Source: Pseudomonadota bacterium
GTDB taxonomy: Bacteria; Pseudomonadota; Alphaproteobacteria; Rhizobiales; Aestuariivirgaceae
Direction of reading: 5' to 3'
Assembly: GCA_020161855.1 (NCBI GenBank)
Contig: JAIUNJ010000003.1
Span: forward strand, 1-64,000
Length of the DNA: 64,000 bases
Part shown: positions 24,905-27,082 of the stretch, in pieces
Numbering within the stretch: the stretch's first letter is position 1
How the letters are laid out: each line of letters begins with the position of its first letter
The notes under the pieces: model-generated
Told to the model about the DNA's origin: nothing
Seen by the model: the letters and a program-made list of their open reading frames with translations, nothing else
The model's database searches: none
Program-made: the position numbers and the translations under genes

Positions 24905-25912
24905 TCAGGCGGCGTCTTTCATGCGCGCCGCCTGCGCCTCGACAGCATCCAGCGCCTTCACAAGAACGCTGGCATCGGCACCGGGCTTCACCGCATCCTG
25001 CGACAGGATCTGGCGCCAGAGGCGGCCACCCGGCTGGGCGTGATAGAGGCCCAGCATGTGCCGGGTGATACGGTGGAGCAGCAGGCCCGCCGAGACCTGT
25101 TCCCGCACATAGGGCAGCATGGCTTCCACCGCCGCGCGGCGCGAGGCAACGGGATTCGCCTCTCCCGTGAACAACCGGTCGACATCCGCCAGGATCCACG
25201 GCGTCTGATAGGCCGCCCGGCCGTACATAAGTCCATCCAGATCAATAAGATGAGAAAAATCTCCTGCCGGGCTTGACATTCCTCCGTTAAGTATTATATC
25301 CTTTTTAGGAAAGGAGGCCTTGAGGCGATGTACGCGGTCATAGTTCAGTGGTGGTATTTCACGATTCTCTTTCGGGCTGAGGCCTTTGAGCCAGGCCTTG
25401 CGCGCATGCACGATGAAGGTCTCGCAGCCCGCCTGCGCCACCTGCTCGACGAAACTCTGCAGCGCCTCCTCCTCATCCTGGTCGTCGATGCCGATGCGGC
25501 ACTTGACGGTGACCGGGACGCGGACCGCCGCCCGCATCGCAGCCACGCAATCCGCCACCAGCGCAGGCTCGGCCATCAGGCAGGCGCCAAAGCGGCCCTC
25601 CTGCACCTTGTCCGACGGGCAGCCCACATTGAGATTGATTTCGACATAACCAAACTGCTCGCCGATGCGCGCCGCTTCTGCCAGGCCCTTCGGACTGCTG
25701 CCACCCAGCTGAAGCGCCACGGGCTGCTCGCGCACATCAAAGCCCAGAAGCTTGTCCCGGTCGCCATGGCGCACGGCCATCTCCGTCACCATCTCGGTGT
25801 AGAGCAAGGCATGGCGCGTGAGGACGCGGTGGAAGACACGGCAGTGCCTGTCCGTCCAATCCATCATAGGCGCAACGGAAAATTGTGGTTTCTGTGGATG
25901 ACGAGTTGACAT
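24905..25912 (-). CDS. dusA: tRNA-dihydrouridine synthase A with element-derived N-terminus
   Basis: This 335-residue FMN enzyme reduces uridines in the tRNA D-loop. It has the opening SVAPMMDWTDRHCR, the catalytic cysteine region NVGCPSDKVQEGRFGACLM, the VKCRIGIDD motif and the FMN-binding NGGM. The first eleven residues (MSTRHPQKPQF) are encoded by the end of an inserted element. The native first coding segment survives upstream at 27002-27082. The insertion therefore split the gene but restored an open reading frame, so the protein is probably functional. The new start has no strong ribosome binding site. Confidence 0.93.
   Translation of the reverse strand: MSTRHPQKPQFSVAPMMDWTDRHCRVFHRVLTRHALLYTEMVTEMAVRHGDRDKLLGFDVREQPVALQLGGSSPKGLAEAARIGEQFGYVEINLNVGCPSDKVQEGRFGACLMAEPALVADCVAAMRAAVRVPVTVKCRIGIDDQDEEEALQSFVEQVAQAGCETFIVHARKAWLKGLSPKENREIPPLNYDRVHRLKASFPKKDIILNGGMSSPAGDFSHLIDLDGLMYGRAAYQTPWILADVDRLFTGEANPVASRRAAVEAMLPYVREQVSAGLLLHRITRHMLGLYHAQPGGRLWRQILSQDAVKPGADASVLVKALDAVEAQAARMKDAA
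25857..25878. repeat. att-like copy at the intact dusA side
   Basis: This 22-base segment matches 27015-27036 at 18 positions, with mismatches at 25859, 25868, 25871 and 25874. It encodes the conserved dusA start region (SVAPMMDW). Part of the match reflects coding constraint, but the second copy sits in an otherwise dead fragment, which supports a recombination site. Confidence 0.7.
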
Positions 25913-26004
25913 TGAAATCGCCGTTGAATGGTGTTGCGGCAGTGCAGATCGATCCGGCTGCATAGTGCGAAAACAGCAACAAACACAGGGCCTTCTACAG
26001 CCAA

Positions 26005-26042
26005 GTATCACATCGGTATCACAAAACAGGTCTTGTGATACC
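26005..26042. repeat. Left-end GTATCACA repeats and inverted copy
   Basis: GTATCACA occurs at 26005-26012 and 26016-26023, spaced 11 bases start to start. The second copy is also the left arm of a perfect 10-base inverted repeat, GGTATCACAA (26015-26024) and TTGTGATACC (26033-26042). Identical octamers occur inside the other end of the element. Such repeats resemble arm-type binding sites of a tyrosine recombinase or its directionality factor. Confidence 0.65.
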
Positions 26043-26087
26043 GCCCGCCCGTTCATCGCTGTGAAGCCGGTCGGGTTCATCGATCCG

Positions 26088-26113
26088 GTGATCGGCCCGA
26101 GCGGGCCGATCAC
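26088..26113 (-). terminator. Strong hairpin directly after the element gene
   Basis: A perfect inverted repeat of 11-base arms, GTGATCGGCCC and GGGCCGATCAC, with a 4-base loop, begins immediately after the stop codon of the element gene. It should form a stable RNA hairpin. No U-run follows, so it may act as a Rho-aided end or mRNA 3' stabiliser rather than a classic intrinsic terminator. Confidence 0.5.
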
Positions 26114-26854
26114 TCAGACTTCACCAGCAACCCTGATGATTTCCCCAAGCAACACGTCCAGGTCTGCCGCAAAATCGACCTGAACAGCAGTTGGAACGTC
26201 TTCTCGGGGGCGAATAGGCGAATGCAGGTGCATATCGGCGATGTTGCGCAGCGACGTTTCCAGGCGCTGCATGTTACCCTTGAACGAGCGGTTCGACTTC
26301 GGCCCGCCATAGTTACTTGCGACTTCGGCGAAGGTGTTGAAGCCAAGGACAGGCGGCACATGGTTCAGGATCGTGCGCAGCAGCATCGCCGTGGTCATAT
26401 GGCATCGGTGCGCATGTGCGACGTTCAGTTCCCGGCAGAGTTCGACCAGACGCGAGAAGTCCCAAGTGCCGCCGCTCATCGACTGCAAAGCCGCGATCCT
26501 AGACAGATCGACATAGGGCTTCGCCTCAGGGGCTGGCTTGGGTGGCTGGACACGCTTCCGATTGATGGCCCGAACAGATGCGAGAACAATCTTCGAAGCC
26601 TCTTCTACTGAAGCGTATGAAGGCCCACCCAATATGCCACCAGCACCGGAGTTTACAGCACTGATCAGGCCAAGCGAAAACTGGTTCGCCATCCCAAGTT
26701 CCTGGTCGATGATGGACTGCGCTTCGATGGCAAGGGCTTTGAAGGTGGCAGCGTGTTCGGTCGGAAGTATCAAGCCCGACATACGCCCCCCGTCTTTGAA
26801 GATGGGCAGAAGCGCGGACATGTCGTTCGCGATAGAGGTCAGTTCTTCGGTCAT
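26114..26854 (-). CDS. Unrecognised cargo protein of the dusA element
   Basis: I do not recognise a named family for this 246-residue protein. Residues 1-110 are helical, with a conserved-looking VDLSRI segment near 117 preceded by a proline-rich linker. The C-terminal half (about 130-246) has a compact pattern: WDFSRLVELCRELNVA, MTTAMLLRTILNHVPP, FAEVASNY, a basic RSFKGNMQRLETSLRNIADMHLH, and an ending VDFAADLDVLLGEIIRVA. No signal peptide or membrane segment is seen. The only gene in the element, it lies in the same direction as dusA. The ATG at 26854 is favoured because a candidate promoter lies between it and an upstream TTG. A host-defence or element-maintenance role is a guess from context only. 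Confidence 0.7.
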   Translation of the reverse strand: MTEELTSIANDMSALLPIFKDGGRMSGLILPTEHAATFKALAIEAQSIIDQELGMANQFSLGLISAVNSGAGGILGGPSYASVEEASKIVLASVRAINRKRVQPPKPAPEAKPYVDLSRIAALQSMSGGTWDFSRLVELCRELNVAHAHRCHMTTAMLLRTILNHVPPVLGFNTFAEVASNYGGPKSNRSFKGNMQRLETSLRNIADMHLHSPIRPREDVPTAVQVDFAADLDVLLGEIIRVAGEV

Positions 26855-26914
26855 GTGCGGAAAGTAGACCACCCGCTGCAATGGCGGAAGACAGCCTTGA
26901 GCGGAACCCACGGG

Positions 26915-26942
26915 GGTATAAAACGACAAACCTACAGATCAA
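26915..26942 (-). promoter_or_regulatory. Candidate promoter of the element gene
   Basis: On the minus strand TTGATC (26942-26937) and TATACC (26920-26915) are separated by 16 bases, close to sigma-70 -35 and -10 boxes. Transcription would start about 50 bases before the ATG at 26854. It sits just inside the GTATCACA pair, so a protein bound there could control it. Confidence 0.45.
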
Positions 26943-26958
26943 TCACCTGAGTTTCTGA

Positions 26959-26978
26959 GTATCACAAATCGTATCACA
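26959..26978. repeat. Right-end GTATCACA repeat pair
   Basis: Two direct copies of GTATCACA lie at 26959-26966 and 26971-26978, spaced 12 bases start to start, about 40 bases inside the right att-like copy. They match the octamers at the left end exactly and have the same orientation on the plus strand. Confidence 0.65.
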
Positions 26979-27001
26979 CGGTTTGTAACTATCGGAAATC
27001 G

Positions 27002-27082
27002 CTAGACCCCCGCCCAGTCCATCATGGGGGCCACGGCGAATGTCTTTCGCTTCGCTGCGGCCATCGTCACATCATCGCTCAT
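27002..27082 (-). pseudogene. dusA: Severed native 5' end of dusA
   Basis: A short open frame starts at the ATG at 27082 and encodes about 26 residues, MSDDVTMAAAKRKTFAVAPM followed by MDWAGV and a stop inside the element. Residues AVAPMMDW match the opening of DusA, which continues only across the element at 25912. This is the original N-terminus, cut off by integration. The native dusA promoter should lie just upstream and may now transcribe the element gene. Confidence 0.85.
27015..27036. repeat. att-like copy at the severed dusA side
   Basis: This is the partner of 25857-25878, located within the severed dusA start (codons for AVAPMMDW). The crossover must have taken place within or next to this segment, because frame and similarity to DusA end a few codons later. 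Confidence 0.7.

Follow-up and report, generated by a model that had tools for sequence, protein, structure and literature searches.

An integrase-free, single-gene unit of 1.16 kb in dusA whose arm-like repeats match those of a phage-borne unit

Introduction

Phage satellites, such as PICI and P4-like elements, carry their own integrase together with regulatory or packaging-interference genes. One-gene cargo is known from the P2/P4 hotspots of phages, where a DUF4238 protein has been tested and found to protect against T7 as an anti-phage system of one gene (PMC9122126); in the part of that source considered here, such cargo lies inside larger phages or satellites and not between att sites alone.

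The elements that come closest to the present case use dusA itself as their target. The DAI islands (Farrugia et al. 2015, PMC4482086) insert into the 5' end of dusA, where they produce imperfect repeats of ~21 bp and provide a new dusA start, and in the portion of the account on which we draw their defining feature is a tyrosine integrase next to the 5' end of dusA, and their usual length is 30-60 kb. For the Vibrio system, according to the relevant section of PMC8409611, a minimal dusA element is excised with no element proteins other than Int and RdfN. RdfN, a PrtN homologue, serves as the RDF, a role that the authors extend to most likely every dusA element. A mini-IE of IMEVchUSA3 placed in E. 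coli dusA is likewise a tiny dusA unit that excises with Int and RdfN, although it was constructed in the laboratory and carries int itself (PMC8409611). Two further kinds of element have lost their integration genes: the CIMEs (cis-mobilizable elements) of ICE/IME tandems, which lack integration and transfer genes, keep attL and attR and accrete in tandem with integrase-bearing elements (PMC5704250, as far as that description extends), and the ssrA islands without integration modules of Dehalococcoides (PMC3146451, with the same proviso).

Within the window, by which we mean the whole 64-kb stretch of DNA that was analysed, a unit of 1,158 bp interrupts dusA; it contains one open gene and no recombinase. 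As in a DAI, there is an imperfect direct repeat in the dusA 5' end and a new dusA start, but no tyrosine integrase adjoins dusA and the unit measures only 1.16 kb. As in a CIME, an element derived from an ICE or IME, integration and transfer genes are absent and a putative attL and attR are kept; the nearest relative of its ends resides in a phage, and its single gene has no family match. Compared with CIMEs and ssrA islands, this unit and that of viral contig L080 are small (1.2 and 0.6 kb), carry one gene each and are tied by their nearest end-relative to a phage rather than to a conjugative element. The unit appears to work like a CIME, but with a parent that appears to be a phage and with minimal size. 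It has none of the integrase, regulatory or packaging-interference genes of phage satellites. In contrast to the mini-IE it is natural and integrase-free, and its cargo is not DUF4238, a family that is nonetheless found in another dusA unit of 1.24 kb (genome G657). In open-licence literature, judged by titles and the start of abstracts, we recognised no description of integrase-less dusA units or phage-attP cassettes.

Results

Structure of the unit in dusA

A first-pass annotation, made from the sequence alone, had proposed that dusA is divided into a severed start at 27002-27082 and a restored body at 24905-25912, which flank an element of about 1.16 kb with a single gene and no integrase. 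Both dusA frames are confirmed here, and the junctions comprise the following features:

24905-25912, minus strand: dusA body with a new 5' end from the unit (MSTRHPQKPQFSVAPMMDW...); PF01207, E 1.3e-78
25852-25883, minus strand: attachment core copy beside the dusA body (CCAATCCATCAT at 25856-25867); direct repeat D1, 25/32
25868-26045, no strand assigned: left end of the unit, with the dusA start, the upstream region and arm-like sites; 76% identity to the left end of the L080 unit
27010-27041, minus strand: attachment core copy beside the severed dusA start (CCAGTCCATCAT at 27014-27025); direct repeat, from core coordinates
27002-27082, minus strand: severed original dusA start with its TAG end just within the unit; from the reading frame

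The body forms an open frame on the minus strand, which was assigned to PF01207 by a Pfam profile search. The severed start, from 27082 to 27002 on the minus strand, reads MSDDVTMAAAKRKTFAVAPMMDWAGV before a stop, and the original dusA read from 27082 gives MSDDVTMAAAKRKTFAVAPMMDW, then stop. The two junction copies lie 1,158 bp apart as direct repeats and match at 18 of 22 positions, the same count as obtained previously, or at 25 of 32 over a longer stretch. Fused at the core, the flanks encode a full in-frame DusA beginning MSDDVTMAAAKRKTFAVAPMMDWTDRHCRV, whereas in the present arrangement the new dusA start is re-supplied by the unit. The GC content of the unit is 55.9%, versus 63.6% for dusA, and its DNA has no second copy in its own genome. 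Between the cores there is one intact ORF, as first described, which takes up the greater part of the distance from end to end. The reported lack of an integrase also holds: 173 queries, comprising dusA-type integrase stretches and one PrtN, produced only seven scattered matches of 9-51 aa with a best E of 0.003, which is chance level given that number of queries.

We consider it highly improbable that no insertion took place and that a gene was gained beside a dusA whose start is repeated by chance. Such a reading is already contradicted by the sequence, since the joined flanks give an in-frame DusA, both cores are flanked by the same repeats and the core falls within the dusA attachment region as published for the islands (PMC4482086, in the part considered).

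A search for empty sites among relatives had been suggested with the first-pass annotation. Upstream synteny at dusA varies among the loci of the genus, and a site can therefore be judged only by whether the local sequence has a single core. The exact core is present at dusA in 26 of the 29 other loci of the genus, two of which have a further match ~2.2 kb downstream, and is absent from the remaining loci L031, L036 and L039; these counts cover the sequence near dusA, such that more distant islands are possible. None of these loci provides a same-species empty allele.

Arm-like repeats at both ends of the unit

Lambda-type integrases use arm sites. The sequence GTATCACA is present in five copies, all of which lie within the two ends of the unit and none elsewhere in the 64-kb window. 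Three copies are located at the left end, the third of them inverted, and two at the right end:

26005-26012, plus strand: arm-like site GTATCACA, +149 from the core; repeat scan
26016-26023, plus strand: arm-like site GTATCACA, +160 from the core; repeat scan
26034-26041, minus strand: arm-like site, inverted, +178 from the core; repeat scan
26959-26966, plus strand: arm-like site GTATCACA, -55 from the right core; repeat scan
26971-26978, plus strand: arm-like site GTATCACA, -43 from the right core; repeat scan

None of 500 dinucleotide shuffles of the unit reaches five copies of any 8-mer, and the same is true for the L080 unit. The paired repeat pattern occurs in four of 385 genomes of the class, including that of the window, where its two matches are the two ends of the unit. 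GTATCAC precedes only 4 of 112 distinct dusA-type integrases, indicating that the repeat is a feature of a subgroup. Repeats on both sides of a core match those of a dusA-type integrase element and have the layout expected for the arm-type integrase sites of an attP, from which we infer that they are arm sites bound by an integrase. These sites were absent from the first-pass annotation, and the unit is more organised than first seen; the claim in that annotation that the ends and the cargo frame are intact is borne out, with both repeat sets in register and the ORF open.

A phage-borne unit with the same geometry

A search with this repeat identified the viral contigs L080 and L093, in each of which two dusA cores 627 bp apart precede a dusA-type integrase. 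The integrase of L080 is 49% identical, over the alignment, to that of phage BcepMigl. The 627-bp unit between the cores has no integrase, contains a 108-aa ORF that differs from the cargo of the window unit, and is situated between phage genes and the dusA-type integrase of the phage, with its inner core 192 bp ahead of the latter. Its repeats are positioned at -55/-43 and +149/+161/+178 (inverted), with which the offsets of the window unit (-55, -43 and +149, +160, +178 inverted) agree within 1 bp, and the phage's own sites at -43 and +151/+181 (inverted) adopt nearly the same register.

The L080 record spans 47 kb and encodes terminase, head-tail, tail and lysis genes, it has no Dus match, and ORFs are also present on the outer side of the unit, which places the unit in a phage attachment region rather than in a chromosome. 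We take the record, whose ends overlap by exactly 92 bp, to be a closed circle, but do so cautiously since that stretch falls in a repetitive gene. L093 has 3 differences from L080 in 10,605 bases, and their starts are no more than 4 bases apart; L093 confirms the L080 assembly, but is not clearly an independent case, as the source may be the same. Within the viral collection, 98 stretches have paired repeats, five of them with a strong dusA-type integrase match. Double exact cores within 2.6 kb are seen at two of 101 distinct integrase loci, each of which offers at least 700 bp of upstream sequence, some of them less than the full 2.6 kb.

Over ~180 bp, from the core to the inverted repeat, the left ends of the window and L080 units share 76% identity, and the similarity fades just past that repeat. 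In alignment score the L080 unit (76) is followed among 130 left ends by a phage end at 39, whereas the L080 phage's own left end reaches 21.5, and 20 shuffles give no more than 16.5. When the viral collection was scanned with three patterns, which need near-exact matches, this type of left end came from L080 and L093 only, and plasmid and phage records contain no DNA similar to it. At the right ends, the window and L080 units have the repeats and the core in common and little else. The right end of the L080 unit is nearly identical to that of its own phage, which would fit an origin by deletion from such a phage.

The arrangement in L080 could alternatively be a local duplication of the phage attP, with the window unit a product of recombination at such a double attP, an attP scar that holds a phage gene and has no lineage of its own. 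The ~35 bp ahead of both L080 cores are indeed nearly identical, and cores in direct repeat would make the segment excisable in principle anyway. However, the two left ends of L080 are clearly different alleles, scoring 22.5 against each other compared with 76 between the unit and the window, a difference that simple duplication does not produce, and we regard this explanation as improbable.

The cargo gene

The single intact ORF of the unit (26114-26929) encodes 271 aa from a TTG at 26929. The ATG at 26854 is the likelier start, because conservation with three relatives begins there:

26114-26854, minus strand: cargo gene read from the ATG at 26854 (246 aa; start by conservation; the open frame extends to the TTG at 26929, 271 aa)
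26088-26113, minus strand: perfect 12-bp inverted repeat just past the cargo stop, a hairpin without a T tract; inverted repeat I5

These relatives, of 66-71% identity, are found in two viral contigs (L017, L018) and one Rhodospirillales MAG (L013), and a fourth, truncated relative lies at a contig end (L014); an exact dusA core and the repeat are both missing from all four loci. In the MAG, the cargo homologue (L013:1556-2326) stands alone among other ORFs of a 7.3-kb locus. In five of six pairs pN is 0.17-0.23 and pS 0.67-0.85, and the closest pair has 0.09 versus 0.44. With synonymous differences so far above non-synonymous ones, the gene is real and constrained, and by this measure is under purifying selection.

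The cargo matches no domain or family in Pfam, PADLOC, PHROGs, NCBIfam or PDB sequences. By tblastn it has no match in phage records and distant matches in 15 plasmid records. As to the search of related genomes proposed with the first-pass annotation, the protein is absent from the 99 other genomes of relatives searched, and the sole match in 384 other genomes of the class is a weak one of 45 residues (E 6e-4). Given the relatives in two viral contigs and the purifying selection on the gene, a role as a moron-type gene, possibly anti-phage, would be plausible. A HEPN-like motif of the Rx4-6H kind, RNIADMH, was spotted by eye in the protein, for which we make no HEPN claim. The region 26060-26135 around the hairpin past the stop folds with -38.2 kcal/mol (z -3.64), and a terminator search found no terminator-like site there.

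Other integrase-less units at dusA

An order-wide survey matched the core in 241 of 387 genomes, 14 of which were re-queried, and its list of core pairs is a lower bound. Among the matches listed, short same-strand pairs occur in the window genome (1,158 bp) as well as in G657 (1,238 bp), G043 (3,858 bp), G042 (4,501 bp) and G580 (5,283 bp). The G657 unit (L396:2468-3706, G657:C1) resides in dusA with one DUF4238 gene and has no significant repeated octamer. The G042 unit (L384:1547-6048, G042:C22; L385) has no integrase, encodes one AEP-TOTE primase-helicase and is in tandem with an integrase-bearing dusA stretch of about 71 kb between cores, the end repeat of which, GGACCAA, is absent from the ends of the 4.5-kb unit. 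We considered both as members of the lineage of the window unit and rejected this, as matching repeats are absent. The G580 pair encloses two large ORFs that by eye resemble an RND efflux pair.

In viral contig L317 (1519-3798), which has no Dus match, the 2,279 bp from one core to the other contain two overlapping ORFs (251 and 153 aa) followed by a PrtN-family gene (PF11112; an excisionase family in PHROGs), and the repeat of its phage is found at one end of the unit only. The PrtN/RdfN-like gene with which this unit ends resembles a gene just outside it, the outer one judged by eye. A tandem with an integrase-bearing element is seen for the L080 and L317 units and is absent at the window unit. 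Short integrase-less dusA units thus recur in these sequences, from which the mobility of all of them does not follow.

Small size and a missing integrase do not by themselves decide whether the window unit is a non-autonomous satellite or a remnant, the two options named in the first-pass annotation, because remnants also occur at dusA. The 3,858-bp unit of G043 (L383), from the same family, has a 184-aa ORF beside a Fic-domain gene, and since this ORF resembles by eye the N-terminal part of an integrase, we take the unit as a decayed remnant. By analogy, the window unit may descend from a dusA prophage of the L080 kind that lost everything between the arm sites bar one moron gene and is now immobile, its intact ends being leftovers. 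Such decayed elements, the cargo homologues in two viral contigs and the description of CIMEs as decay products (PMC5704250, in the part considered) make this a possibility to be taken seriously, yet we would sooner doubt it: the two sets of repeats, like the cargo frame, are undamaged and keep their register, there is no credible integrase trace, and among the ends compared the closest left end belongs to an integrase-less unit rather than to an integrase-bearing element. Of the earlier pair of options, the arm sites and a geometry that matches a phage-borne unit favour a helper substrate over debris.

Discussion

On balance, we think that the unit is probably a compact non-autonomous element, built on the complete attP of a dusA-specific tyrosine integrase with one cargo gene, that would be mobilisable in trans and portable by phages. 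Deletion remnants are not exclusive of this reading, since a remnant could still be an integrase substrate, and the likelihoods that we attach to the two overlap because deletion origin and mobility can both be true. The finding goes further than the first-pass annotation, in that the integrase-free element has a seemingly complete attP and belongs with a phage-borne unit in one class. A single-gene insertion in a chromosome is thereby connected with a unit that a phage carries next to its integrase.

A mover would have to come from elsewhere if it is of the dusA type, because the host genome has no dusA-type integrase at E ≤ 1e-30, in an assembly that is 92% complete and may thus miss ~8%. 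Eight other Phage_integrase matches are present, one of which is weakly similar to the dusA type (23% identity, E 3e-5). At the same threshold, such an integrase is encoded by 54 of the 397 order genomes, including two from the genus, and in G012 and G014 it lies beside dusA.

In the scenario that we envisage, the integrase would be supplied in trans by a helper phage resembling L080, together with an RDF such as RdfN/PrtN, and that both would act on the two junctions of the unit to excise it as a circle. The circle would then recombine into dusA or into the helper's own attP, such that the helper would carry the unit within the phage genome. A phage with this tandem attP could integrate at dusA and, upon departing via its own pair of sites, could leave the unit alone at dusA, which would give the state seen in the window. 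More tentatively, integrase-free single-gene cassettes of ~0.6-1.2 kb, each consisting of a dusA-phage attP and a cargo gene, could form a lineage that hops between dusA and temperate-phage attP, travels in virions and is dropped at dusA when the phage leaves; this would amount to a system of gene cassettes that phage integrases operate in trans.

If true, single genes, possibly including defence genes, could spread by using the attachment chemistry of temperate phages, with no mobility protein of their own. Searches based on integrases would miss such units, whereas a scan for double cores in dusA would catch them.

Three or four same-strand dusA cores, spaced 20-91 kb apart within one contig, are also present in G093:C1, G574:C1 and G501:C19, suggesting tandem arrays of dusA elements.
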